Shown in pieces: positions 36,042-49,151 of a DNA stretch of 50,070 nucleotides. How positions within the stretch are numbered: position 1 is the first letter of the stretch; every line of letters begins with the position of its first letter. The stretch spans positions 31,733 to 81,802 of the forward strand of contig NHFN02000009.1 in NCBI GenBank assembly GCA_002170245.2, in the 5' to 3' direction. Made by a program: the position numbers and the translations under genes. This DNA is from Gammaproteobacteria bacterium TMED112. GTDB taxonomy: Bacteria > Pseudomonadota > Gammaproteobacteria > Magnimaribacterales > TMED112. The notes under the pieces were generated by a model. It had not been told where the DNA came from. It ran no database searches and saw nothing but the letters and a program-made list of their open reading frames with translations.

Positions 36042-36818
36042 ATGAAAATATCAGTAGTAAGCGGGGGCTTTGATCCTGTTCATTCAGGCCATATTAGCTA
36101 TATCCAAGCGGCCAGAAATTATGGAGAGTATCTAATAATTGCTCTAAATAGTGATCAATGGTTACGAGATAAAAAAGGAAAAGAGTTCATGTCATTTGAT
36201 GAAAGAAAAAATATTTTGATTAATCTAAAAGGTGTTGATGAAGTTATTGAATTTGATGATGATGATAGTGGAAGTGCAATTCATGCTCTTGAAAAAATTA
36301 AAAAAAAATATCCAGATGCACATATTAATTTTTGTAATGGTGGTGACCGTGGCAAAGACAATATACCTGAGATGAGTCTCAAAGGTATCGAATTTAAATT
36401 CGGAGTAGGTGGTGAAAACAAGAAGAACTCAAGTAGTTGGATATTAAAAGAATGGCAATATGATAGTGAAGAAAGAGTATGGGGAAAATTCTATAATCTT
36501 TTTCAAGATAAAAGAGTAAAACTTAAAGAGCTTATAGTTTTACCTGGTAAGGGAATGAGCTTGCAAAGACATTTTTATAGAGACGAGATTTGGTTTATTT
36601 CTAAAGGTGAGTGCATCGTTAACTTTTCAGATTTATCACCAGATGATACAAAAGAATTTCACCTAAAAGAACATGACACATTTAGTGTAAAGAAAAAAGA
36701 ATGGCATCAAATTACAAATCCATTTGAACATGAATGTAAAATTATAGAAGTTCAATACGGACACGAGACCAATGAAGATGATATAGAGAGGCATAGCTAT
36801 TACAAAAATAATGAGTAG
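36042..36818 (+). CDS. Cytidylyltransferase-like nucleotidyltransferase fused to a cupin domain
   Basis: A two-domain protein of 258 residues. Residues 1-135 form a TagD/HldE-type nucleotidyltransferase: [19 protein letters not shown] with the HxGH motif (HSGH) that binds nucleotide phosphates, [13 protein letters not shown], and a C-terminal [10 protein letters not shown] matching the SSxxI/K motif. Residues about 150-258 form a cupin like the C-terminus of type II mannose-6-phosphate isomerase: [32 protein letters not shown], and [19 protein letters not shown]. Both halves suggest sugar-phosphate activation, with the cupin as isomerase/epimerase or binding module. The substrate cannot be read. 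Placement between metK and ahcY is unexpected for this job. It overlaps ahcY by 8 bases. Confidence 0.8.
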
Positions 36819-38169
36819 ATTTAGTGATTATAAAGTGAAAGATATCTCACTCGCAGAGTTTGGAAGACAAGAAATTCTATTAGCTCAAGATGAGATGCCT
36901 GCCTTAATGGAGTTGCGGAAAAAGTATAAAAAAGAGCAGCCTCTCAAAGGTGCAAAAATTATGGGTTGCATACATATGACAGTCCAAACTGCAGTCTTGA
37001 TTGAGACTCTGATTGATTTAGGGGCCGAGGTTAGATGGTCGTCTTGCAATATTTTCTCGACACAAGACCATGCAGCAGCAGCAATAGCTGCTGAAGGTGT
37101 ACCAGTATTTGCCTGGAAGGGAGAGACTGAGGAAGAATATGAGTGGTGCTTAGATCAAACAATTAATAAAGATGGCAAGCCTTGGTCTGCGAACATGATC
37201 CTAGATGATGGTGGCGATTTAACAATTAAAATCCATAAAGAATACGCAAGTATGCTTGATCACATACATGGAATATCTGAAGAGACAACCACAGGAGTTA
37301 AACGATTAAAAGAAATGCTTGCAAGAGGTGAGCTAAAAGTTCCTGCTATAAATGTAAATGATTCTATTACGAAATCTAAGAATGATAATAAATATGGTTG
37401 CCGACATGGACTTGATGATGCCATTAAGCGAGGCACTGATATGCTCCTTTCAGGCAAAAAAGCACTAGTTATTGGTTATGGTGATGTTGGAAAAGGTTCT
37501 GCTGAATCACTAATGCAACAAAAAATGATAGTTGATGTAACAGAAGTTGATCCTATTTGTGCTATGCAAGCTTGCTTTGATGGTTATTCAGTAGTTTCCG
37601 CTTATAACGATGGAAAAGTAGATACTGCTGGATTAAATGTAAATAAAGAATTATTAAAAAAATATGATCTTGTGGTTACAACTACAGGAAATATTAATGT
37701 TTTAGACAGGTTTATGCTCGAAGCACTAAGATCAGGATGTGTTATCTGCAATATCGGCCATTTTGATAATGAAATTGATATTGAATATTTAAAAGAATTT
37801 AAGTGGTATGAAGTTAAACCTGGCGTGCATAAAGTTATTAAATCAGATGATGATTACTTGATTCTCCTCGGGGAGGGCCGGCTAGTTAATTTAGCGCTTG
37901 CTACTGGTCATCCAAGCAGAGTAATGGATGGCTCTTTTTGCAACCAGGTCCTTGCTCAGATAACTTTATATAAAGAAGCATATGCCTCAATGCCTCCGGA
38001 TGAAAAAAAATTATATGTAAAGGTATTACCAAAAAAACTTGATGAGGAAGTTGCATCTTTGATGGTCAAAGGATTTGGTGGTACCTTGACAGTACTTACT
38101 GAACAACAGGAAGAATATATTTCAGTTGCTAAAGACGGTCCATTTAAGGATGATTCTTACACCTATTAG
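36811..38169 (+). CDS. ahcY: Adenosylhomocysteinase
   Basis: Hydrolyses S-adenosylhomocysteine, the by-product of SAM-dependent methylation, to adenosine and homocysteine with a bound NAD. The 452 residues show [20 protein letters not shown] near residue 52, [17 protein letters not shown], and the NAD-binding [15 protein letters not shown] near 222. The C-terminal NAD-contacting region ([19 protein letters not shown]) ends with the family-typical [11 protein letters not shown], matching the usual KP.HYRY tail in position. The start at 36811 overlaps the preceding gene by 8 bases. It completes a metK-ahcY methyl-cycle set; no luxS or pfs is seen here. Confidence 0.97.
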
Positions 38170-38177
38170 TTTAGAAT

Positions 38178-38183
38178 TATAAT
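38178..38183 (+). promoter_or_regulatory. Candidate -10 element for tRNA-Cys
   Basis: TATAAT ends 4 bases before the first base of the mature tRNA-Cys. It may be the promoter of a transcript that starts almost at the mature 5' end and reads on into the pyruvyl transferase gene. Confidence 0.4.
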
Positions 38184-38187
38184 TAAA

Positions 38188-38261
38188 GGCTGAGTGGCAG
38201 AGTGGTTATGCAGCGGACTGCAACTCCGTTAACATCGGTTCGATTCCGTTCTCAGCCTCCA
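38188..38261 (+). tRNA. tRNA-Cys (anticodon GCA)
   Basis: A 74-base cloverleaf. The acceptor stem GGCTGAG pairs with CTCAGCC, followed by discriminator T and an encoded CCA. The anticodon loop CTGCAAC gives GCA, and GGTTCGATTCC forms the T arm. U73 is the expected discriminator for tRNA-Cys. The pyruvyl transferase ATG follows the CCA by only 6 bases. Confidence 0.97.
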
Positions 38262-38267
38262 TTTACA

Positions 38268-39179
38268 ATGAAAATATTTTTATATGGGCAATTTGGAAGA
38301 GGGAACATAGGCGATGATCTTATGTTTTTGCATTACAAGTCAAGCTCACCTAAAAATGTTAAATTTTTTAAATTTTTTAAATTGAAATACTTAAAAAATT
38401 TTTTCCCGAGCAACAACTACATAAAAAATTTTCCAATGATTTTCTTTGCAGATAAGTATGTTGTAACCGGTGGTAACCAAGCTAACTTTGAAAGTATTAG
38501 ATCGTATCTAAAAATATCTTTTCAGATAGTTGTCTTATTTATAAGAAAATTATTTAGAAAAAGAAATCAAATTTTTTCATTTGGTTCAGAATTTCAATAC
38601 ACAAGCATACAGCTTTTCTTAGTAAAACATTTTCTTTTACAGTTTGATGAGATACATGTGAGAGATAAAAAATCTTACAACTACATACAACAGAATATTA
38701 CAAAAACAAATATTTTCTTAAGTTTTGACACTGGTTTCATTTACTTATTGGACAATTATAAAAAGAATATAAAGAAAACTTTTAATTCAAGTTCAAAAAT
38801 TATTAACAAGCCAATTTTTTATTTTCTATCGCATCATTCAGGCTTATCATTTAATTCAAGAAAAGAATATCTTAATCAAGTAGCTAAAGAGAACAAAAAC
38901 ATAATTGTATTTGCACAGTCTAAAGAAGACAAAAAGCTCGCTTCAGAATTATCAAAAAAAATCAAAATTAAAGTTGTTGCTTATGATTTTTATTCTTTAG
39001 ATAATTTTATTAAATTATTAAGCGACTCTTCAAAAATAATAACTGAAAGATTCCATGGCCTCATTTTTGCCTATGCACTAAACATTAGATGTGAAGTAAG
39101 AGGCAATCTTCCTAAACTCAAGAACTTATGGGAATTAGAGAGGCAAAGGTACAGCAATGAAGTTAAGAAATTTATTTAA
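38268..39179 (+). CDS. Polysaccharide pyruvyl transferase-family protein
   Basis: A 303-residue member of the CsaB/WcaK family (PF04230), which adds pyruvate ketals to envelope sugars. The start reads FLYGQFGRGNIGDDLMFLHY, the typical nucleotide-independent N-terminal motif. ADKYVVTGGNQANFES follows near residue 62, then FGSEFQYTS, EIHVRDKKSYNYI, and the C-terminal KIITERFHGLIFAYALNI near 264 with its Arg and His. The start is ATG 38268; the reading frame upstream crosses tRNA-Cys and is not coding. It is the first gene of the polysaccharide region and overlaps the following membrane protein gene by 23 bases. Acceptor sugar unknown. Confidence 0.85.
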   Translation: MKIFLYGQFGRGNIGDDLMFLHYKSSSPKNVKFFKFFKLKYLKNFFPSNNYIKNFPMIFFADKYVVTGGNQANFESIRSYLKISFQIVVLFIRKLFRKRNQIFSFGSEFQYTSIQLFLVKHFLLQFDEIHVRDKKSYNYIQQNITKTNIFLSFDTGFIYLLDNYKKNIKKTFNSSSKIINKPIFYFLSHHSGLSFNSRKEYLNQVAKENKNIIVFAQSKEDKKLASELSKKIKIKVVAYDFYSLDNFIKLLSDSSKIITERFHGLIFAYALNIRCEVRGNLPKLKNLWELERQRYSNEVKKFI

Positions 39180-40239
39180 TAAATATTCCTCAACTTTGAT
39201 TGGTGTTTTATGTTTTACAGTAGTTTGGGCAACTAAAAAAATCAGTTTGGAATTTCAGGAAAGTGACCTGTTAATTGATTTTGTTAGAGCCTGGTTTTAC
39301 GGAATATTATTAGCAACTATTTTTTTTAGTCCGACGATAAAGAGTCAAGCCACTAAAATTTATGAAGGCAAAAAAATAATATTTTCATATTTTGAGGTAA
39401 TACTTTTTATTCTAACTTTAGTAATTTTACTTCCTCTAGAAAAAAGTTATTTAATACTTTTATACTCAATTTTATATGTATTAAAAAATGTAGTGGTTGA
39501 ATTATCGATTATTCAAGAGAAAAAAAATGAAACGATCTTTTACGAATTATTTTTTGTCTTAATTTTCCTTCTTATAACTATTTCAGTTGTAAAATCACAA
39601 GAATATTTAGCTTTAATGGTAATGGTTTTAGGTATTTTGCTTTTTTCAATATTTGCACTATCAAAATTTAAATTGTTCAAGGCTTCAATCGATCCAAGCC
39701 CTAACAGCATAATTTTTATAGTTATTGCAGCACATGTACCGTTTGTGAATGTTTTAGCTGGTTTTTTATTAAGTTCACCAAACTACTTGATATTCACAGA
39801 TTTTTACCTGAATGTTTCGTTTGCTATTGCAGGGATGAGCTTTGTAACCAACAGACTTCTTTTTTCTAGGGAGTTTTCTTCAGATCTGGTTACCAAAAAT
39901 TTAAATTTACAATCAAAATATGGAAAAGGCTTTATTCTTTTTGTAATTCTTTCCTCATTATTTCTATATTTTATCAACAACCCAATTTCCTTATTACTCA
40001 TTTACTTTTTAATTAGAATAATATTCACAATTTCAAATACTTCAATTTGGACAAATAAAAATATTGAATATTTTAAAAGTATACTTATTCTTCCTTGTGT
40101 GGCACTTTGGATTTCAATATTTTTAACTTTGATATATTTGGGCGATAACAGCTTGGCACCATTTTATTCTGTATTAACGGCTCAGATAATTACATTGTTA
40201 TTACTCATTGCTTTAAATAAAAAGTCTTTTATTAATTAA
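39157..40239 (+). CDS. Multi-pass membrane protein, possible polysaccharide flippase or transporter
   Basis: A 360-residue protein with about ten hydrophobic segments and short basic loops (for example TLIGVLCFTVVWATKKI, VILFILTLVILLPLEKSYLI, FILFVILSSLFLYFI). I recognise no catalytic or family motif. Position after a pyruvyl transferase in a polysaccharide region makes a Wzx-like flippase or other export role plausible, but it is smaller than usual Wzx proteins (about 420-480). The start lies 23 bases inside the preceding gene, indicating coupled translation. Very AT-rich, like the rest of the region. Role is inference. Confidence 0.6.
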   Translation: MKLRNLFNKYSSTLIGVLCFTVVWATKKISLEFQESDLLIDFVRAWFYGILLATIFFSPTIKSQATKIYEGKKIIFSYFEVILFILTLVILLPLEKSYLILLYSILYVLKNVVVELSIIQEKKNETIFYELFFVLIFLLITISVVKSQEYLALMVMVLGILLFSIFALSKFKLFKASIDPSPNSIIFIVIAAHVPFVNVLAGFLLSSPNYLIFTDFYLNVSFAIAGMSFVTNRLLFSREFSSDLVTKNLNLQSKYGKGFILFVILSSLFLYFINNPISLLLIYFLIRIIFTISNTSIWTNKNIEYFKSILILPCVALWISIFLTLIYLGDNSLAPFYSVLTAQIITLLLLIALNKKSFIN

Positions 40240-40292
40240 TATTTTAAAATATTTTACTGTTTTAATAATAGCTCCTCTCAATTTATTAAGAG

Positions 40293-40298
40293 TATAAT
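40293..40298 (+). promoter_or_regulatory. Candidate -10 element for tRNA-Leu
   Basis: TATAAT lies 18 bases before tRNA-Leu in a 77-base gap. An imperfect hairpin (CTCTCAA/TTAAGAG, 40274-40291) just upstream might be a weak terminator for the membrane-protein gene. No clear -35. Confidence 0.4.
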
Positions 40299-40316
40299 TA
40301 TTAAATAGATATTTAA

Positions 40317-40403
40317 GCCCAGGTGGTGAAATTGGTAGACACAAGGGACTTAAAATCCCTCGAAGGAAACTTCGTGCCGGTTCAAGTCCGGCCCTGGGCA
40401 CCA
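40317..40403 (+). tRNA. tRNA-Leu (anticodon TAA)
   Basis: An 87-base class II tRNA. The acceptor stem GCCCAGG pairs with CCTGGGC, followed by discriminator A and an encoded CCA. The anticodon loop CTTAAAA gives TAA. A long variable arm (CGAAGGAAACTTCG) and the T arm GGTTCAAGTCC are present. The Wzz-like gene ATG follows the CCA by only 4 bases. Confidence 0.97.
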
Positions 40404-40407
40404 GATT

Positions 40408-41214
40408 ATGGAAAAAAAAGAATATATTGAAATACCATATAAAAGAATATGGTTTCAAATAAAAGAAAAGGCATTTTTAAAAATGATGGCCATTTTCTTC
40501 ATAAGTCTATTTAGTACAATTTTATTCGAATTCAACTATAAATTTTTTAAATCCAATGCTGTTTTAGAGCAAGCATCAATAAATAATACTTCAAATAGTT
40601 CGCTACCAATTGGCGTTGGAAATTTATTGTCAAATAATCAGTTAAGCAGCAAAAGCACAAGCTTTTATTTGAAATCACTAAACTCCTTCAATTTTTTTGA
40701 GTTTCTATTGATCAAAGACAAAACTGGAATATTTCAAAAAGATATTTTTATGAATAATATGCAAAAATATGAAAAATTTGAAATATATAAAAATATTTTC
40801 AGTTCAAGCATTGATGATTTAGGCTTTATTTTACTTGATGCAAAGTGCAAGGACTGGAAATATTGTAATAATCTTCTGACCTTTGTTATAGAAAATTCAA
40901 ATACGTATATTAAATCAGAATATAAAAAAAGATCTAACCTAAATATTGATTCGATTATGAAACAAATAGAATCCAGTAATAATTTTGCCGTAAATTCAGC
41001 ACTTCTTAATGAAGTTATTGATGAAATGATTATTAAGTCGAGAAGTGAAAGTGATAATGGTTACGTTTTCCCTGTCATACAAGAACCTTATTCGAATAGA
41101 GAACCAATAACTAGTTCATTCTTAGTTTTTATTGTGTCTTTTATTTTTTACCTTTTTATTTACATATCATTTGTGGCAATATTTCAGACTTTTTTAAAAG
41201 AAACTAAATTATAA
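40408..41214 (+). CDS. Wzz-like polysaccharide chain-length regulator (probable)
   Basis: A 268-residue inner-membrane protein with the Wzz layout. A cytoplasmic N-terminus is followed by a membrane helix (MAIFFISLFSTILFEFNY, about 27-44), a periplasmic, helix-rich domain, and a second membrane helix (FLVFIVSFIFYLFIYISFVA, about 240-259). A Pro-containing segment (FPVIQEPYSNREP) precedes the second helix, as in Wzz/Wzc proteins. Sequence is otherwise divergent. The ATG is only 4 bases after the tRNA-Leu CCA, leaving no space for a ribosome binding site outside the tRNA. ATGs at residues 26-27 are possible but would remove the region before the first helix. The 3' end overlaps the convergent next gene by 11 bases. 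Confidence 0.6.
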   Translation: MEKKEYIEIPYKRIWFQIKEKAFLKMMAIFFISLFSTILFEFNYKFFKSNAVLEQASINNTSNSSLPIGVGNLLSNNQLSSKSTSFYLKSLNSFNFFEFLLIKDKTGIFQKDIFMNNMQKYEKFEIYKNIFSSSIDDLGFILLDAKCKDWKYCNNLLTFVIENSNTYIKSEYKKRSNLNIDSIMKQIESSNNFAVNSALLNEVIDEMIIKSRSESDNGYVFPVIQEPYSNREPITSSFLVFIVSFIFYLFIYISFVAIFQTFLKETKL

Positions 41215-42094
41215 ATTCCTTCTTCCCGCGAAAATAAAGTGATAATTTTTCATAAATTATTATTAAGAGCGCAAAGTCAATAAAGAACAACAGTCTTGAT
41301 CCAACTTTCATATAACCTAGAGAATAAAGGAGTACTATGAAAATTATAAGAAATGAATATCTATAGATATTTATGCTATTAAGCTTTAAAGCATAATTCA
41401 GAAATAAAAGACTAACAGGGTATACAAATACCATCAATATATGAAATTTGTTATACCCAATATTAGGACTTGAATAAGCATTAAGTTTCGTAGACATAAC
41501 ATCACTCAACATCAAAATTGAAGCTAAACTTAGAGCTATAAAAATGAAATAGAAAGAGATATTTTTCACTACTTGTCTTCTCACAAATACAAGGATAAAA
41601 AGCAGCTCAAAAAATATAAAAATTACAGCAGACCAATGAAACAGAAGAGCCAATATCCCAAGTATGAAACAAATTAATATTCTTGGCTTTTCACTATTAA
41701 GCTCAATCCCCAGCTTAAAAACAAAGCAACTAGATATAAAAAAAGAGGTGATGTTGAATAATAAAAGCTCTCCTGGTGGAGTTAAAGCAAGCAAGAATAA
41801 GAAAAATCCACTTTTATTGAATAAAGATAAAAAAATAATAATTGCCATCCAGACAAATAATATTCGTATATAAACAGGGTCTAATTCAAATAAAGCAAAG
41901 AATATAAAAAAAAATAATTCAGCAAGAAATTCAGAGGTTAGAGTATCTAATAATTCAAACTGATTAAAAAATGAAATGCTTGAAATCATTCTTTGATAAG
42001 TATCTAAATTAATAGGAATATTAATTAACAAAGAAGTCGTATAAAAAAATATGAAAAAATATGAAATTAACAAATAAATTGATCTAAACGACAT
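41204..42094 (-). CDS. EpsG/Wzy-like polymerase (multi-pass membrane protein)
   Basis: A 296-residue membrane protein with about nine hydrophobic segments. Features that recall the EpsG/Wzy polysaccharide polymerases are the early NLDTYQRMI region, a conserved-looking ALTPPGELLLFNIT loop, and the LLFHWSAVIFIFFELLFIL segment, in which a His at a membrane edge is typical. No soluble catalytic domain. Opposite in orientation to its neighbours: it overlaps the Wzz-like gene 3' end by 11 bases and diverges from the next glycosyltransferase across 30 bases. A polymerase next to a chain-length regulator is the usual Wzy-dependent pairing, but the assignment rests on weak motifs. Confidence 0.5.
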   Translation of the reverse strand: MSFRSIYLLISYFFIFFYTTSLLINIPINLDTYQRMISSISFFNQFELLDTLTSEFLAELFFFIFFALFELDPVYIRILFVWMAIIIFLSLFNKSGFFLFLLALTPPGELLLFNITSFFISSCFVFKLGIELNSEKPRILICFILGILALLFHWSAVIFIFFELLFILVFVRRQVVKNISFYFIFIALSLASILMLSDVMSTKLNAYSSPNIGYNKFHILMVFVYPVSLLFLNYALKLNSINIYRYSFLIIFIVLLYSLGYMKVGSRLLFFIDFALLIIIYEKLSLYFRGKKEFII

Positions 42095-42124
42095 AAGGAC
42101 TAAAATTAACTCACAATATATTAT

Positions 42125-43111
42125 ATGCGAAAAAAATTAGCTCTCTACGAAGCAACAATCCAAGGTGGGGAAAAATACCACCAACTATTTTATAAGAGCC
42201 ATGGCCTCTCGCTAACGATACTGGTTGATGAACCAGGAATTATTAAAAATAATGAAGGAGATTTTCAAGGTATATATAATTGGTCCAATAAAAAAATTCT
42301 TTGCTTTTTAAAGAAAAGGAATATTAAACAAATCTTATTTTTTAGCCATAGAATTCAAGATGTAATGTTAGCTAACTATTTAAGAAAAAATAATATAAAT
42401 ACATCGTATATGCAACATGGTTACTACGAAATTACATCGATGAAAAGGACATTAAGTGGGGTTTTAAGAAAAATTTATAGATTTAAGACAATTTTGCTTA
42501 GGTCTCTAGATTCATTATTGAATCTAAAAGAATTAACTTGCTTACTCTACCCTTTGATTCTACATTGGGTTTTTTTAAAAAATTTTAAAAAAGAATTTTT
42601 AAATCCTTATAACAGTTGTTTTGTTTTTAACGAGTATTGGCAAAAAAAACATTATGAAATTTATAATTGTGATAGAAATTCTGTATTAATTGCAGGAAAT
42701 TTTGACTACAAAAATCTTTTTATTGAACCACAATCAAATTATGAGCCAGAAAGAATTTATATTTGCCAATCACTTTACGAAGATGGAAGAATCAGTAAAC
42801 TACATTTTCAACAAGCTTTAGCGCAATTACAGAACATTGATGCAATAAAATATCACCCTAGATCTGATAAGTTACTATATTCTGAATTACACGCAAATAA
42901 AATTAGTAGAATACCAATAGGAAGTACTGTGATAGGTCATTATTCATCTCTTCTAATATCAGCTAAAGCAATGGGTTGTAAAATTGAATTAATTGGCATC
43001 GAGGGGCATAAAACTCCCAAAAGTTTTTTTGAGGAATTAAAAAACACAAATCGGCAAAAAAATTTGACTGATTTTTGTCCAGTTGAAATAATTACAAGTC
43101 ATTTATTTTAG
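42125..43111 (+). CDS. GT-B-like glycosyltransferase of unassigned family
   Basis: A 328-residue soluble protein that reads like the polysialyl/CDP-glycerol/GT52-type group: TSYMQHGYYEIT near residue 94, SCFVFNEYWQKKHYEIYNC near 180, RIYICQSLYEDGRISK near 208 at the start of a second Rossmann-like half, then DAIKYHPRSDKLLYSE. It ends with TVIGHYSSLLISAKAMG, which resembles the C-terminal substrate-binding helix of GT-B enzymes. The Lys-Tyr-His-Pro and His-Tyr-Ser-Ser elements are typical of CMP-sugar or CDP-polyol transferases, but I cannot name the family. The cytidylyltransferase at 45548 supports a CMP-activated donor. Its 3' end overlaps the SDR gene by 9 bases. Confidence 0.55.
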   Translation: MRKKLALYEATIQGGEKYHQLFYKSHGLSLTILVDEPGIIKNNEGDFQGIYNWSNKKILCFLKKRNIKQILFFSHRIQDVMLANYLRKNNINTSYMQHGYYEITSMKRTLSGVLRKIYRFKTILLRSLDSLLNLKELTCLLYPLILHWVFLKNFKKEFLNPYNSCFVFNEYWQKKHYEIYNCDRNSVLIAGNFDYKNLFIEPQSNYEPERIYICQSLYEDGRISKLHFQQALAQLQNIDAIKYHPRSDKLLYSELHANKISRIPIGSTVIGHYSSLLISAKAMGCKIELIGIEGHKTPKSFFEELKNTNRQKNLTDFCPVEIITSHLF

Positions 43112-43834
43112 GTCTGGATCATGCAACAAATTCGAAATACCTCCGTCAAAATTTATTTTTGCACCATTCATAAAGCTTGAATCGATAGACAAAATCTTAA
43201 AGATTAATTCAGCAAGCTCTTTTGGAAGTCCAATAGTTTTAGTGGGATGTGAGGAAGCAATTTTTTTAAAAGATTCTTCACTGAGCCCATCTCTTAACAT
43301 AGAAGTTTCAATTGCAGCAGGAAAAATTTGTATGATTTTAATTCTATGAAGATCAAATTCAAGTGATAGGCCATCCATTAGGCCTTCAAGTAGTTTTTTT
43401 GAAGAGGAATAACTTATGAACCCCTTCTTGGTCAGAGTTGAGTGTATGGAATTAATTGATAAAAAAGACGACTTGTTTTCAACTAATAATTCTTTTAATA
43501 GATTAAAAATTTTAAACTGGGCAATTGCATTAATGCTCAATGATTTCAGTAATTTTTTCTCTGAGATATTACTATGATCATTTAACGCTTGGATTGCTGA
43601 CGTGCAAATAATATGTTCAATTGTACTTGTACCGATAATCAACTTCATTTCATTTTGTAACTTGTTTAAATCATCTGGGTTACTAATATCACAATTAATA
43701 TGATGATAGTTTTTATTGATAATGTGTGATTCTTGAACGTCTAAACCTATTACAGCGTAACCCTCTTTCAAGTATAATTCAGATATGGCTGATCCGATTC
43801 CACCTGCACTTCCAGTGATTAAAATATTTTTCAT
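43103..43834 (-). CDS. Short-chain dehydrogenase/reductase
   Basis: A 243-residue SDR. The Rossmann motif ILITGSAGGIGSAI is at residue 4, then LDVQESH, CTSAIQALNDHS, the catalytic Ser in LSINSIHS near 133, and the Tyr-x-x-x-Lys in SYSSSKKLLEG near 146. IFPAAIETSML and NFDGGISNL end the protein. The start is ATG 43834, chosen over an upstream ATG (43858) because a perfect TATAAT (43842-43847) would fall inside the longer version and the shorter start gives the normal SDR N-terminus. Its start codon directly abuts that of the divergent SMP-30 gene. In flagellin-glycan and nonulosonic-acid clusters SDRs of this kind (PtmA-type) accompany CMP-sugar synthetases, which may apply here. Confidence 0.88.
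   Translation of the reverse strand: MKNILITGSAGGIGSAISELYLKEGYAVIGLDVQESHIINKNYHHINCDISNPDDLNKLQNEMKLIIGTSTIEHIICTSAIQALNDHSNISEKKLLKSLSINAIAQFKIFNLLKELLVENKSSFLSINSIHSTLTKKGFISYSSSKKLLEGLMDGLSLEFDLHRIKIIQIFPAAIETSMLRDGLSEESFKKIASSHPTKTIGLPKELAELIFKILSIDSSFMNGAKINFDGGISNLLHDPDLK
43820..43825 (+). promoter_or_regulatory. Candidate -10 element for the SMP-30-like gene
   Basis: TAAAAT (5 of 6) ends 9 bases before the ATG at 43835 and lies inside the coding start of the divergent SDR gene. Implies a leaderless transcript. Confidence 0.4.
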
Positions 43835-44614
43835 ATGAAAGATTATATAGATGTTCAAAACTTATTGGGAGAGGGAATAATATTTTGTCAAAACTTACAA
43901 AAACTTGTTTGGGTTGATATTTTGCAAAAAAAATCTTACGAATACTGCCCTTTGACTGAAAAGCTCGATATTTTCAATCATGACTTTCAAGCGTCTTTTG
44001 CTGCTGAATACCAGGATAGCTATATATTAGTTTCAAGCATTGGTATTTTTAAAAAAGATAAAAAAACAGAAAATTTCTTATTAATACAAGAGTTCAATAT
44101 AAGCCGCAATTTAAGGACAAACGATGGAAGAATCGATCAAAAAGGAGAATTGTGGTTTTCTACCATGGATCAAAAAAATAATATTGCAGGAGAAATATTC
44201 AAGCTCTCAAATTTTCCAGAACCTGTTTTTAAAAAAATACTTATCCCAAACTCAATATGCTTCTGTAAAAATACATTAAGAGGCTATTTTTCAGATAGTG
44301 CAACAAAAAAATTATATTCATTTTCACTTGAGGATATGTCTAAAGAATTATTCTACACATTTGAATTTGGTGAGCCTGATGGTGCTATTGTAGACCTTGA
44401 ATCTAACATACATTTAGCTATGTGGGGGGCTGGAGAGATTGCAGTTTTATCTAGAAAAGGTAAAAAGATTGACTCTATTAAAACACCTTTTAAACATCCT
44501 ACCTGTATTGCTACCTTTGAATTAAATGAGGCAAAATACATTGCAGTTACATCTGCCTTAGTGGAGGATGATGGCGGCGACGTTTGGATAACTAAAACAA
44601 GTTATAATTTCTAA
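43835..44614 (+). CDS. SMP-30/gluconolactonase-family protein
   Basis: A 259-residue six-bladed beta-propeller of the SMP-30/gluconolaconase/LRE family, typically a metal-dependent sugar lactonase. The N-terminal LLGEGIIFCQNLQKLVWVDI has the metal-binding Glu in GEG. RTNDGRIDQKGELWFSTMD near residue 90 carries the substrate-binding Asn/Asp, IPNSICFC the third ligand Asn, and GEPDGAIVDLESNIHLAMWG near 180 the catalytic Asp. HPTCIATF ends the fold. All expected metal ligands are visible. It starts at the base next to the SDR start codon and is followed 5 bases later by a glycosyltransferase. A lactonase in a polysaccharide cluster suggests aldonic or ulosonic acid chemistry; the substrate is unknown. 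Confidence 0.88.
   Translation: MKDYIDVQNLLGEGIIFCQNLQKLVWVDILQKKSYEYCPLTEKLDIFNHDFQASFAAEYQDSYILVSSIGIFKKDKKTENFLLIQEFNISRNLRTNDGRIDQKGELWFSTMDQKNNIAGEIFKLSNFPEPVFKKILIPNSICFCKNTLRGYFSDSATKKLYSFSLEDMSKELFYTFEFGEPDGAIVDLESNIHLAMWGAGEIAVLSRKGKKIDSIKTPFKHPTCIATFELNEAKYIAVTSALVEDDGGDVWITKTSYNF
43842..43847 (-). promoter_or_regulatory. Candidate -10 element for the SDR gene
   Basis: On the minus strand a perfect TATAAT ends 7 bases before the ATG at 43834, and lies inside the coding start of the divergent SMP-30 gene. Transcription would start at or within one or two bases of the start codon. Confidence 0.5.
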
Positions 44615-44619
44615 AATAA

Positions 44620-45561
44620 ATGAAAGTTTCAATAATTATTAGAGCACTCAATGAAGAAAAACATTTAGGAAAACTTTTTAGAGGTTTAGCAGAGCAAACA
44701 TACAGAAATTTTGAAGTCATATTTGTTGATTCTGGTTCAAATGACAATAGTGTAGCTATTGCACAAGAAAATAATGCGAAAATTATAAACATACCAAAGG
44801 AAAAATTTTCTTTTGGTAGATCTTTAAATTTCGGATGCAAAGCTGCATCTGGTGAAATACTTGTTTTTATGAGTGCACATGTATATCCAGTCAGCAGAAA
44901 ATGGCTTTCTAATATGGTGTCACCTTTTGATGATAAAGCTGTCTCAATAGTGTATGGCAGACAAATTGGAAATGAATTTACCAAATTTTCCGAACATCAA
45001 ATTTTTAACAAATGGTTTCCAGAAAAAAGCAATTATGATCAAGAAGACTATTTTACTAATAATGCTAATTGTGCAACTAGAAAATCAATTTGGTTAAGGA
45101 ATCCATATGATGAAAAATTAACTGGTCTTGAAGATTTATATTTTTCAAAAAATGTTAAGAGTGAAGGTGGAAGAATAGTCTATTCAGCTGATGCTGAAAT
45201 TGTACATATTCATGAAGAGACTTTTATGCAAACCAAAAATCGTTACATGAGGGAAGCAATCGCTATGAAATATATCGAACCTTCATATTCATTTAGTTTT
45301 TCTTCATTTATAAGAAACTTCCTTTTAAGCGTTAAAGAAGATGTATCTCTCGCTCTAACACAGAAAAAATTTACTAAATATTTTCTTTCTATAGTAGCTT
45401 TTAGGTTTGCTCAAAAATATGGAACATATCAAGGATTTAATAAGACTGAAGAAATAAATGATTCACTTTATAATAAATTCTATAGCTATGATGGTAAGAA
45501 TCCAGCATTAAAATCAAGTGTTAAGACTTCTAAGGATTTAATTGATTATGAAAAAGAATAA
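44620..45561 (+). CDS. Family 2 glycosyltransferase
   Basis: Inverting GT-A enzyme of 313 residues, probably adding a sugar to a lipid-linked repeat. The N-terminus reads VSIIIRALNEEKHLGKLF, then FEVIFVDSGSNDNSVAIAQ near residue 33 and the metal-binding equivalent of DxD in FMSAHVYP near 88. GLEDLYFSKNVKSEGGRIVY near 170 holds the ED base motif typical of GT2. The C-terminal 100 residues, from EETFMQTKNRYMREAIAMKY, resemble the rhamnosyltransferase-like subgroup. A TATAAT at 44603-44608, 11 bases upstream, may provide an internal promoter. It overlaps the cytidylyltransferase gene by 14 bases. Confidence 0.9.
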   Translation: MKVSIIIRALNEEKHLGKLFRGLAEQTYRNFEVIFVDSGSNDNSVAIAQENNAKIINIPKEKFSFGRSLNFGCKAASGEILVFMSAHVYPVSRKWLSNMVSPFDDKAVSIVYGRQIGNEFTKFSEHQIFNKWFPEKSNYDQEDYFTNNANCATRKSIWLRNPYDEKLTGLEDLYFSKNVKSEGGRIVYSADAEIVHIHEETFMQTKNRYMREAIAMKYIEPSYSFSFSSFIRNFLLSVKEDVSLALTQKKFTKYFLSIVAFRFAQKYGTYQGFNKTEEINDSLYNKFYSYDGKNPALKSSVKTSKDLIDYEKE

Positions 45562-46213
45562 TGTGACATGTTTGATACCAATGCGGCATAATTCTGAAAG
45601 AGTCCCAGGTAAAAATTATAGAACTCTTGGAGATAAGTGTCTTTTTGAGCACATCTTAAAATCTGTTCTAGAGGTTGATGCCATTAATGAAGTTATAATC
45701 AATACAGATTCACAAGTCATAAAAGATATTATAAAAGAATCATATAAGAAACATGTTACTGTCATAGAACGGCCCGATAATCTTGTAGATGGTGAGATTC
45801 CAATGAATAAAATTATTGAAAATGATTTAGATGCAATAAGCAATGAAATAATCTTTCAAACCCACTCTACTAACCCTTTTCTGTCAAAAAAAACTATTGA
45901 AAATGCAATCAAAATTTATTTAGAAGATGATGAACATGATTCGTTATTTAGCGTGAATTTAATTCAATCAAGATTTTATGATCATAATAAAAGACCAATA
46001 AATCATGACCCAAAAACTTTGCTTAGAACACAAGATCTAGCTCCTGTTTATGAAGAGAATTCATGTATTTACTTGTTCACAAAAGATTCTTTTCTTAAAA
46101 CAGGCAATAGAATTGGAGATAAGCCAATTTTATTTGAAACTAATGCTGCGGAATCACTCGATATTGATAATGAAATTGATTTTAAAATGGCAGAGGCAAT
46201 CATCAAAAAATAA
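45548..46213 (+). CDS. Acylneuraminate cytidylyltransferase-like (CMP-sugar synthetase)
   Basis: A 221-residue nucleotidyltransferase of the NeuA/KdsB/PtmB group, which activates acidic 2-keto sugars as CMP derivatives. The signature CLIPMRHNSERVPGKNYRTL is at residue 8, with the CTP-binding Arg and Lys. VIINTDSQ, ERPDNLVDGEIPM and IIFQTHSTNPFLSKKTIENA (about 95) follow the family; the usual LLQPTSP-like stretch is QTHSTNPF. The end, FETNAAESLDIDNEIDFKMAE, matches the C-terminal Asp motif. The start is ATG 45548; a TTG at 45542 is less likely. The substrate might be a sialic acid, legionaminic/pseudaminic acid or Kdo-like sugar; NeuB- and NeuC-type synthases are not in the window. Confidence 0.85.
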   Translation: MKKNNVTCLIPMRHNSERVPGKNYRTLGDKCLFEHILKSVLEVDAINEVIINTDSQVIKDIIKESYKKHVTVIERPDNLVDGEIPMNKIIENDLDAISNEIIFQTHSTNPFLSKKTIENAIKIYLEDDEHDSLFSVNLIQSRFYDHNKRPINHDPKTLLRTQDLAPVYEENSCIYLFTKDSFLKTGNRIGDKPILFETNAAESLDIDNEIDFKMAEAIIKK

Positions 46214-46215
46214 AT

Positions 46216-47157
46216 ATGAATAAATTGCTTGTAACGTGTAGTCATTTAGAAAATGAACTTTCTAATAAACAATATGATCAAATAGAATTTGAAATCATCC
46301 AACCGAAAGAGTCTAAACAAACATTTAGCTCTGAAGAGATGAAGTCGTTACTGCACGGTGTTCATACTGCGATAATTGGGGATGATGAAATAGATTTTTC
46401 TTCTATTCAAGAAAACAAAACATTGAAAAATATCATTAAATGGGGAGTTGGTTATGATGGGATAAAAATTCACGAACTGAAAAATTCTGGCATAAATATT
46501 TTTCACACACCTGGAGTATTTAGTGATGAGGTTTCTGATCTTGCAATTGGTTTGATGATCAGCGTTGTAAGAGGAATAAACCAAATGGACCAAGACATAA
46601 GAAATGGAGTTTGGCAACAATTTAAGGGAACAACTTTTAATGGAAAAACTGCAGGTATAATAGGTTTTGGAGCTATCGGGCAGGGAATTTATTCAAGGTT
46701 ACTTCCTTTTGGTTTAAATGTAATTTGGTTTGATCCTTTTGCTGATACTAGTTTGGATGGCAAGAGAAACTTTGAAGATATCCTTTTAAATTCCGATTAT
46801 ATTTTTTTAGCTTGTAATTTGACACCTGAAACTCGCAATATCATTAACAAAGAATCAATTTCCAAAATGAAAAATAAACCAGTATTAATAAATATATCCA
46901 GAGGTGGACTCATAGAAGAAAATGATCTTATGGATGCGTTAAAAAATAAAAAAATAAAAGCAGTTGGACTTGATGTGTTTGAATCTGAACCCCCTATAAA
47001 TGAACTTATAAAACATAATCAGTCTGTCTTTACCTCTCATAGCGGTTCTTCAACTTTTGAAGCAATAAATAAGATTAATAAAGTTACATTAGAACTATCT
47101 AAATTATTATTGGAAGAAAAAGATTACTCTCATTTACCAGTAAGAAAACTTAATTAG
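46216..47157 (+). CDS. D-isomer-specific 2-hydroxyacid dehydrogenase
   Basis: A 313-residue NAD-dependent dehydrogenase of the SerA/phosphoglycerate dehydrogenase-like family, without a C-terminal regulatory ACT domain. GVGYDGIKIHELKNSGI near residue 76, the NAD-binding IIGFGAIGQGIYSRL near 152, the catalytic Arg in NISRGGLIEENDLM near 230, Glu in VGLDVFESEPP near 255, and the His in TSHSGSSTFEA near 277 are all present. It lies 2 bases after the cytidylyltransferase and 3 bases before a glycosyltransferase, so it belongs to the sugar cluster rather than to serine synthesis. A role interconverting a 2-keto and a 2-hydroxy acid intermediate is inference. Confidence 0.9.
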   Translation: MNKLLVTCSHLENELSNKQYDQIEFEIIQPKESKQTFSSEEMKSLLHGVHTAIIGDDEIDFSSIQENKTLKNIIKWGVGYDGIKIHELKNSGINIFHTPGVFSDEVSDLAIGLMISVVRGINQMDQDIRNGVWQQFKGTTFNGKTAGIIGFGAIGQGIYSRLLPFGLNVIWFDPFADTSLDGKRNFEDILLNSDYIFLACNLTPETRNIINKESISKMKNKPVLINISRGGLIEENDLMDALKNKKIKAVGLDVFESEPPINELIKHNQSVFTSHSGSSTFEAINKINKVTLELSKLLLEEKDYSHLPVRKLN

Positions 47158-47160
47158 TTC

Positions 47161-48198
47161 ATGCTCGCAATAATCTCAAACTCAGATAATCCAGATATGC
47201 GTGAATATTTTTCATGCAAGTTTGATCTAAACATTAACGGAGATATTCATTTTTATTCTTCCAGCCCAGAGTCCTTTAAAAATGAGGATATTCTTACTTC
47301 AACAAAAGTTAAGAAAAATAAAATTTCAGTAAATATTTTTTTTGATTTTTCGATTATCTGCCAAATGCTCAAAGATTTTCGTAAAAAAAAGATTAAATAT
47401 ATCTTATTTGATAATGTCCATGTAGCAAATGTTTTTCAAATTTTAATCTTCAAAGCTTTTGGGTATAGAATCATAAGCACTATCCATGATTATGTGCCTC
47501 ATCCAGGAAGTAAATCAATTTTTATAGCTATTTACAATCGTGTATTTATACACTTTTTATCAGACTGGATAATAGCATTTTCAAAGAAATTTACCTCAAA
47601 GAAAAATGTTTCATATGTTTGCTTAGGGGGAATAGACCATCAATTTTCACCAAATGATGGGCATTCAAGAAAGTATATATTTTTTAATGGTAGGCTTGAA
47701 TCTTACAAAGGTATGGAACATTTGCCAAAAATACAGTCCTTCCTTGCTAAACATCATCCTAATAAAACTTTGTTAGTAGCAGGTAGTGGCTATCTACCAA
47801 ATAAGGAATATCTTGAAAGTTGCATAAATGTTCAAGTTCATAATTCTTTTATTTCAGAAACAGAGTTAAATAATTATTTTGATAATTCACTTTTAACCAT
47901 ATTGCCTTATAACCACGCTACACAAAGTGGGGTTTTAATTAGGTCTTTCTCAAGGGGAGTTCCAGTAGTTGCCTTTGATGTAGGTTCGTTAGGGGAATAT
48001 GTTTGTCATGGTGAGAATGGATTTATTTCAGAGCAAAATAATTTAGTTGAGTTTTGTAATCATATAGATAGAGCCATCTTAAGCTACGATCATTTGTCTT
48101 ATAATACAAAAAAAATTTTTCAACAAAAATTTTCAAAATCTGCTTTTATAACTCAATATCAGTCATTCATAAATATATTAAAGAGAGATAAGAATTGA
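47161..48198 (+). CDS. Family 4-type glycosyltransferase (GT-B)
   Basis: A 345-residue GT-B transferase. The second Rossmann half starts FFNGRLESYKGMEHLPKIQS near residue 177, with TLLVAGSGYLP, NSFISETELNNYFDNS and TILPYNHATQSG near 250. The end motif GVPVVAFDVGSLGEYVCHGE near 270 holds the conserved Glu; the first Glu of the usual EX7E pair is replaced by Gln in TQSGVLIRS. The N-terminal half is more variable and holds the acceptor site (ISTIHDYVPHPG). It abuts the hydroxyacid dehydrogenase (3-base gap) and its TGA overlaps the TTG start of the epimerase by 4 bases. Sugar specificity unknown. Confidence 0.88.
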   Translation: MLAIISNSDNPDMREYFSCKFDLNINGDIHFYSSSPESFKNEDILTSTKVKKNKISVNIFFDFSIICQMLKDFRKKKIKYILFDNVHVANVFQILIFKAFGYRIISTIHDYVPHPGSKSIFIAIYNRVFIHFLSDWIIAFSKKFTSKKNVSYVCLGGIDHQFSPNDGHSRKYIFFNGRLESYKGMEHLPKIQSFLAKHHPNKTLLVAGSGYLPNKEYLESCINVQVHNSFISETELNNYFDNSLLTILPYNHATQSGVLIRSFSRGVPVVAFDVGSLGEYVCHGENGFISEQNNLVEFCNHIDRAILSYDHLSYNTKKIFQQKFSKSAFITQYQSFINILKRDKN

Positions 48199-49151
48199 AA
48201 AAATTTTTAGTCACTGGGGCAGCTGGTTTTATTGGCCACCATTTTATAAAAAAACTACTCGATAACGGTAATTATGTAATAGGGATAGATAATTACGGTT
48301 TATCAGAAACAAAAAAACTTTCAAAAATTAGATTGTCGACAATTAAATCTAAAAATTTTTCACTATTAAATCTGGATATAAACGAAAAAAACTTTGAAAA
48401 GAACTTAAAAACTTATGAGTTTGATTGTGTTGTACATTTGGCTGCTAAAGCAGGTATAAGGACATCTTTTCGTGATCCGTTGGTCTATATAAATAACAAT
48501 ATAATAAGTCACCAAAATATTTTAGATTTATGTAAAGCTCGGAAAGTTCCTTTATATTTTGCATCCTCATCGTCTGTCTATGGCAACCATGCTAATAATA
48601 GTTCAAATGAAGCAGATTTGTCTGATCATCCAACTTCGATTTATGGAGTTACAAAAAAAACTACAGAAATGCTTAGTCAAGTTTATTCAGATAAATATAA
48701 TTTAAAAGTCTATGGATTTAGATTTTTTACAGTTTACGGAATATTAGGAAGGCCTGATATGGCATATTGGATTTTTGCAAAAAAAATACTGCAAAATAAA
48801 CCTATAAAAGTTTTTGGAAATCCAAATTTAATCATCAGGGATTTTACCCATGTTAGTGACATAACTAGTGGCTTACTATCAGCAATCGAATCAAACAGAT
48901 CAAATGAGTTATTTAAGATATACAACTTAGGAAGAGGCAAGCCCGAAACGTTGGCTGATTTAATAAATTATATTTCAGAAGCATACGGCAAAAAGCCAAG
49001 TATAGATTTCAAATCAAGCTTTTATGGTGATGTAAGGAAGACATCTGCATGTATAATTAGTGCTAAATCTGACTTCGGGTATAACCCTAAAATTAATTTA
49101 CAAGAAGGTATTTATGAGTTTTGCAATTGGTTTAAGAATTTTAATAAATAG
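48195..49151 (+). CDS. UDP-glucuronate 4-epimerase-like NAD-dependent epimerase
   Basis: Extended SDR of 318 residues. NAD motif TGAAGFIGHHFIKKLLDNG at residue 7, HLAAKAGIRTSFRDPLVYIN near 82, the catalytic Ser in FASSSSVYG near 120, Tyr-x-x-x-Lys in SIYGVTKKTTEM near 147, and FRFFTVYGILGRPDMA near 175. The AAKAGIR and RFFTVYGxxGRPDMA segments match UDP-glucuronate 4-epimerase (CapI/GlaE type), which makes UDP-galacturonate for capsule, more than GalE. IRDFTHVSD is also conserved. The start is TTG 48195 in a 4-base overlap. Its 3' end overlaps the following gene by 38 bases. Confidence 0.85.
   Translation: MKKFLVTGAAGFIGHHFIKKLLDNGNYVIGIDNYGLSETKKLSKIRLSTIKSKNFSLLNLDINEKNFEKNLKTYEFDCVVHLAAKAGIRTSFRDPLVYINNNIISHQNILDLCKARKVPLYFASSSSVYGNHANNSSNEADLSDHPTSIYGVTKKTTEMLSQVYSDKYNLKVYGFRFFTVYGILGRPDMAYWIFAKKILQNKPIKVFGNPNLIIRDFTHVSDITSGLLSAIESNRSNELFKIYNLGRGKPETLADLINYISEAYGKKPSIDFKSSFYGDVRKTSACIISAKSDFGYNPKINLQEGIYEFCNWFKNFNK
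49103..49108 (+). promoter_or_regulatory. Ribosome binding site for the YjbH-like gene
   Basis: AGAAGG lies 5 bases before the ATG at 49114, inside the epimerase gene, and sets this start. It shows the organism also uses ordinary Shine-Dalgarno initiation inside operons. Confidence 0.6.

Follow-up and report, generated by a model that had tools for sequence, protein, structure and literature searches.

A conserved gene module predicted to make a CMP-activated 2-keto sugar acid without NeuB

Can a CMP-activated acidic sugar be made without NeuB? The question is raised by a stretch of 50,070 nucleotides from Gammaproteobacteria bacterium TMED112 (contig NHFN02000009.1, positions 31,733 to 81,802; the window), in which genes for a short-chain dehydrogenase/reductase (SDR), an SMP-30-type hydrolase, a NeuA-type cytidylyltransferase and a D-2-hydroxyacid dehydrogenase (HADH) lie close together in a polysaccharide region. 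To our knowledge, the CMP-activated acid sugars described so far (Kdo, Kdn, and sialic, legionaminic and pseudaminic acids) all begin with a condensation with phosphoenolpyruvate (PEP). The original prediction read the four genes as a NeuB-less pathway to such a sugar, and both the genome of the window, in which no NeuB is found, and the co-occurrence of the genes in other genomes bear this out. We find that the cytidylyltransferase, the HADH and the SDR, together with a GT2 glycosyltransferase, belong to a conserved module, and that this module does not need NeuB. To the proposal that its products synthesise a CMP-activated ulosonic (2-keto) acid with no NeuB-type PEP condensation, and transfer it, we give an even chance. 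The data show protein family membership, conserved catalytic and NAD-type residues, a conserved neighbourhood, orthology, and that several carriers lack NeuB; what each enzyme acts on, that the pathway runs oxidatively, and which sugar it makes and of what size, we infer.

All four genes are where they had been placed, with products that exceed the Pfam cut-offs. The SDR (43103-43834, reverse strand, best-placed start ATG 43834; PF13561/PF00106) is predicted to be an NAD-dependent aldose 1-dehydrogenase, and the SMP-30/gluconolactonase (SGL) family protein (43835-44614, forward strand; PF08450, E=4.6e-38, 131.7 bits) an aldonolactonase. On the same strand as the latter follow the predicted CMP-ulosonate synthetase (45548-46213, best-placed start ATG 45548; PF02348, CTP_transf_3, E=9.5e-29, 101.2 bits at a cut-off of 22.6) and the HADH (46216-47157; PF02826, 172 bits, and PF00389), a predicted NAD-dependent aldonate 2-dehydrogenase. 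A fifth gene within this interval had been overlooked: the GT2 gene (44620-45561, forward strand; PF00535), the predicted transferase of the CMP-activated product, lies between the SMP-30 and cytidylyltransferase genes, with its last 14 bp inside the latter; GT2 and cytidylyltransferase genes also overlap in Thalassovita, Sulfitobacter and Gemmobacter. The SDR and SMP-30 genes stand head to head, with start codons at 43834 and 43835 and no base between them, and the SDR gene overlaps at its 3' end with that of a glycosyltransferase gene at 42125 (43103-43111); hence each promoter must sit within the neighbouring gene.

A scan of 84,980 genomes yielded 159 relatives of the cytidylyltransferase, of which the best 80, 44-52% identical, were kept, so that the locus counts given here are skewed to close relatives. 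These 80 are mostly from Anaerolineae, the others from Planctomycetota, Bacteroidota, Zixibacteria, one deltaproteobacterium and alphaproteobacteria; further relatives came from Roseobacter-group plasmids and gammaproteobacteria, and none from viral contigs and phage records. The module itself was found in Chloroflexota, Planctomycetota, Bacteroidota, Zixibacteria, the deltaproteobacterium, and alpha- and gammaproteobacteria. In a tree of 101 cytidylyltransferases, the window protein falls inside a clade of 88 members (support 100/98) that is separate from relatives encoded beside NeuB as well as from NeuA and NeuA-HAD proteins found at these loci; its own branch is long, so its exact position within the clade is unsure.

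For the 61 clade loci whose flanks reach at least 2.5 kb upstream and 4 kb downstream, partners were scored within 6 kb of the cytidylyltransferase gene: HADH is present in 58, an MptE-like protein (PF01973) in 52, SDR in 49 and GT2 in 44. Of 87 clade loci, 79 have the HADH gene downstream of the cytidylyltransferase gene and on its strand, and in 65 the distance is at most 400 bp; the GT2 gene (38-53% identity of the proteins) lies immediately upstream in most module loci. Among seven loci of distant relatives (23-38% identity), on the other hand, HADH occurs in one and NeuB stands alongside in two. The E. coli records H6 (32%) and H38 (23%) contain distant relatives with NeuB alongside and were rejected as belonging to other pathways.

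Both HADH and SDR belong to large superfamilies, in which identity alone tells little, so we compared best matches genome-wide. The ten other whole genomes searched each encode 3 to 10 related dehydrogenases; in 10/10, the one that best matches the window HADH adjoins the cytidylyltransferase gene, and this module copy usually leads the next-ranked paralogue by a wide margin (in one case, 221 to 117 bits). For the window SDR, the module copy is the best match in six genomes (100-123 bits), the remaining matches being below 60 bits. The co-localisation is far beyond chance. The expectation that the four genes are conserved together holds for the cytidylyltransferase, the SDR and the HADH; the SMP-30 gene is a variable member.

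A profile search for NeuB (PF03102), positive in nine control genomes, gave no match in the genome of the window (1.02 Mb, 20 contigs), and no NeuB-type operon was found elsewhere in it; as this genome is 92% complete, the absence is probable rather than proven. NeuB was likewise not found in G076, a gammaproteobacterium of 99% completeness that carries the whole module, nor in the carriers L011, L055 (Mesorhizobium sp. L-8-3) and L063, and four others (L004, L039, L046 and L072) gave only matches below 35 bits, which resemble other aldolase-type synthases more.

What, then, could replace the condensation? D-2-hydroxyacid dehydrogenases interconvert 2-hydroxy and 2-keto acids, NeuA- and KdsB-type enzymes activate cyclic 2-keto acids, and an SDR with a lactonase is the usual pair leading from an aldose to an aldonate. 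Given the first two chemistries, the keto product of the HADH would be the natural substrate of the cytidylyltransferase. We thus propose that the SDR would oxidise an aldose at C1 with NAD to an aldonolactone (step 1), which SMP-30, or elsewhere a PF04199 cyclase or a UlaG-like MBL-fold hydrolase, would open to the aldonate (step 2). The HADH would oxidise the C2 hydroxyl to a 2-keto acid, which would close to a hemiketal ulosonic acid with its 3-hydroxyl kept (step 3); the NeuA-type enzyme would transfer CMP from CTP to this acid and thereby render the sequence irreversible (step 4); and GT2 at 44620, in many genomes with the MptE-like protein, would place the sugar on a surface glycan (step 5). 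The broader proposal is more tentative, and we rate it somewhat below even: a widespread PEP- and NeuB-independent route in which aldoses are oxidised stepwise to CMP-activated 2-keto-aldonic acids (3-hydroxylated, of hexulosonic or pentulosonic type), lactone opening having been recruited three times from unrelated hydrolases.

The nearest Protein Data Bank (PDB) sequences to the window SDR are 2dtd/2zk7, glucose/aldohexose dehydrogenase ('glucose 1-dehydrogenase related protein'), and it groups with the module SDRs (cluster 2) rather than with the SDRs that accompany NeuB in Anaerolineae (cluster 11); the description of this protein as PtmA-like is not supported. The best NCBIfam model of the Bacteroidota copy is an aldose dehydrogenase, below cut-off, and scores of 90 (window) and 125.6 bits (L046) against PRK06398, with its cut-off of 341, mark aldose dehydrogenases as the nearest kind only. 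Catalytic S/Y142/K146 and the NAD-type Asp32 are conserved. The HADH has the NAD domain and the Arg/Glu/His triad of its family, with R229/E258/H275 and NAD-type Asp173 retained by at least 96-98% of the module copies; both dehydrogenases keep the Asp typical of NAD use. The structure model of the cytidylyltransferase (pLDDT 85) is closest to the CMP-Kdn synthetase PpNeuA (9t4z; Foldseek E=5e-17), also its closest solved profile match, and then to CMP-Neu5Ac synthetases. Its score against the pseudaminic acid cytidylyltransferase PseF (TIGR03584), 70.4 bits, is below the equivalog cut-off of 205.7.

Outside Anaerolineae, the module often includes a hydrolase as well, drawn from one of three unrelated families, of which SMP-30 is the one found here and in alphaproteobacteria. 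SMP-30 accompanies all of SDR, HADH, cytidylyltransferase and GT2 not only in the window but also in Sphingobium (L063), Thalassovita (L086) and Sulfitobacter (L087), and the SDR and SMP-30 genes overlap within one operon in L063 and L086. The window protein has 2ghs and 7plb (SMP-30 proteins) as nearest PDB entries, and the metal-site motifs GEG, R-x-NDG, PN and PDG are kept among the SMP-30 proteins of module loci. In L004, L005, L011, L039, L046 and L072, the gene directly ahead of the cytidylyltransferase gene encodes a PF04199 cyclase hydrolase, and in most of these loci it separates the cytidylyltransferase gene from that of GT2. An MBL-fold protein is encoded directly ahead of GT2 in L099, L100 and L113, all three gammaproteobacterial; the lactonase UlaG is among its named relatives. 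In L113 (7025-8692), a UlaG-like MBL-fold hydrolase and the module GT2 are fused in a single open reading frame of 555 residues. Both SMP-30 and UlaG-type families include lactonases. Three unrelated hydrolase families in one slot suggest a common hydrolytic step, which an SDR that forms a lactone would explain; for SMP-30, lactone hydrolysis is predicted.

Several observations weigh against this pathway. Oxidising a 2-hydroxy acid with NAD is unfavourable and would have to be pulled by the CTP step. SDR families do not fix a substrate, and the window SDR gene is inverted relative to the usual module order. The Anaerolineae loci, which comprise every Chloroflexota locus except L004, yielded none of the three hydrolases; lactone opening may there be spontaneous or encoded elsewhere. 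The best match of the PF04199 protein is arylformamidase, so that it may cleave an amide instead. In place of the NeuA motif R-Q-D/Q-W/L, the cytidylyltransferase has T161-Q-D-L, with the Thr invariant across the clade and lying in a segment of the structure model (residues 153-162) that is poorly defined (pLDDT <50). The substrate pocket thus differs from that of NeuA, which makes the ulosonate substrate a prediction from sequence, and a substrate other than sialic acid is likely. Finally, 24 of the 61 flanked clade loci, namely in Anaerolineae, have NeuB no more than 10 kb away. The model is weakest on which way the dehydrogenase runs, on the variability of the hydrolase, on the altered pocket residue and on the identity of the sugar.

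The last observation also feeds an alternative, that the module modifies or supplements a standard nonulosonic acid pathway: NeuB encoded elsewhere would make the acid, this cytidylyltransferase would activate it, and SDR and HADH would tailor it. In many Anaerolineae loci, the surroundings of the module do include NeuB, another SDR and a NeuA-HAD fusion, and a PF03102 search was positive in 16 of the 23 genomes or records of carriers, strongly so in 11. Where NeuB is present, however, it is accompanied by its own NeuA-HAD, and the carriers listed above have no NeuB (the genome of the window, G076, L055, L063 and L011) or weak matches only. We consider this explanation unlikely. In Anaerolineae, the module often lies near a complete cluster of NeuB, NeuA-HAD fusion and PtmA-like SDR (for example, in L019, L031 and L073), which suggests glycans with two different CMP-acid sugars.

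A second alternative, which we judge just as doubtful or slightly more so, turns the dehydrogenase around: the HADH would work reductively towards a D-2-hydroxy acid (glycerate-like), and the cytidylyltransferase would form a CMP or CDP derivative of this non-ulosonic acid, as CpgD makes CDP-glycerate. Its family is normally reductive, its best models are phosphoglycerate dehydrogenase (SerA), with which it shares the fold, and glyoxylate reductase, a phosphoglycerate cytidylyltransferase exists (PMC12275187), and the NeuA pocket Arg is replaced by Thr. The HADH differs from SerA in lying far below the equivalog cut-off (195 against 454 bits) and in having no ACT domain. It also shows 'GDD' where phosphoglycerate dehydrogenase has the Arg-containing 'VRT', which speaks against a phosphorylated substrate; moreover, the cytidylyltransferase is nearest to CMP-Kdn/Neu5Ac synthetases in sequence and fold, and the lactonase would be left without a role.

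Could the cytidylyltransferase instead be an additional CMP-Kdo synthetase that draws on the ordinary Kdo pathway and has nothing to do with its neighbours? The genome of the window has a KdsB-like gene, so Kdo is probably made, and L086 has kdsA and a kdsB next to the module. This explanation is nonetheless quite improbable: KdsB matches are weaker than NeuA matches, the score against the KdsB model TIGR00466 is 24.1 bits at a cut-off of 155.2, separate KdsB proteins already exist in both genomes, and the conserved dehydrogenases would go unexplained. In the window genome, this KdsB-like protein, on another contig, and one protein below cut-off are the only other CTP_transf_3 matches.

Chance neighbourhood in a gene-rich glycan island, to which one could point because the island is hypervariable in the genus and SMP-30 is no constant partner, is very remote and is refuted for cytidylyltransferase, HADH, SDR and GT2, the SMP-30 gene excepted, by the likeness of partners, order and orthologues across phyla.

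For the transfer of the product of the proposed oxidative pathway, the glycosyltransferase at 42125 had been put forward. It matches no Pfam or NCBIfam family, has no homologue in 369 genomes of the class and no match to any probe in the other module loci, and its structure model is unusable (pLDDT 36), so that we no longer consider it a CMP-sugar transferase. The most conserved transferase of the module is GT2 at 44620, which is thus the best candidate for this step. Very long proteins with an MptE-like (PF01973) domain, candidate multi-domain transferases, adjoin the module in L086 (13443-18182) and L063 (11677-16050). On the Acuticoccus plasmid (L089, 9201-12362), an HpcH-type aldolase takes the place of the SDR beside a cytidylyltransferase (38%), an HADH and a HAD phosphatase, a variant that the main model does not explain.

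In the window, a variable polysaccharide island framed by ahcY, tRNA-Cys and tRNA-Leu(taa) carries the module genes as cargo. The order ahcY, tRNA-Cys, cargo, tRNA-Leu(taa), cargo (36811-49151, and L115-L119) marks a hypervariable polysaccharide island in the genus: ahcY followed by both tRNAs recurs in four genomes of the genus, tRNA-Cys alone was seen in a fifth, and the glycan genes differ each time. No cytidylyltransferase match at E <= 1e-25 was found in 20 genomes of the genus, and a relative is present in no more than a few percent of the genomes of the class or phylum. Recent horizontal gain would be the natural reading of the module's presence here, in a window whose gene order elsewhere (ubiG near gyrA; serC ... 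aroA-cmk-rpsA) we take to be gammaproteobacterial. Three base pairs behind the HADH gene follows a GT4 glycosyltransferase (47161-48198, forward strand; PF00534), which probably shares its transcription unit and is outside the conserved module, and then a GalE-like NAD epimerase (48195-49151, forward strand; PF01370, best model TIGR01179, below cut-off), a possible link to sugar supply; in Thalassovita and Sulfitobacter, galE directly follows the HADH gene. At 36042-36818, an RfaE2-like nucleotidyltransferase domain is fused to a mannose-6-phosphate-isomerase-type cupin.

Compared with known systems, the module shares with the NeuA/NeuB pathways of sialic, legionaminic and pseudaminic acids a NeuA-type enzyme, a predicted CMP-activated acidic sugar and a surface-glycan context with MptE-like proteins in many loci, but several carriers lack the NeuB that those pathways require, SDR, hydrolase and HADH take its place, and the cytidylyltransferases form a distinct clade. 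PpNeuA, despite its similar fold, is only 20% identical to the window enzyme and has Arg where the latter has Thr; Kdn itself is PEP-derived. With the KdsA/KdsB pathway the module shares the CTP_transf_3 superfamily and differs from it in lacking kdsA. The SDR and SMP-30 pair recalls the oxidative sugar catabolism of the Weimberg, Dahms and De Ley-Doudoroff pathways (aldose to lactone to aldonate), from which the module departs by having a 2-hydroxyacid dehydrogenase and a cytidylyltransferase in place of a dehydratase, and in its predicted anabolic use. A search of 5.39 million open papers found none on the gene combination, and for hexulosonic acids only the E. coli K3 capsule, which according to the citing text contains 4-deoxy-2-hexulosonic acid (Dengler 1988, cited in PMC10433991), a precedent for a hexulosonic acid other than 3-deoxy in a bacterial glycan for which we claim no link to the module.

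In summary, the module appears to be a new variant of CMP-acid-sugar biosynthesis, with a predicted function. Genome surveys that use NeuB as a marker would miss it. If the proposed pathway is correct, it would add a new class of activated sugar, together with a gene signature by which such a sugar can be found across several phyla, cultured species included, and it would suggest a role for many annotated 'acylneuraminate cytidylyltransferases' that are found without NeuB.

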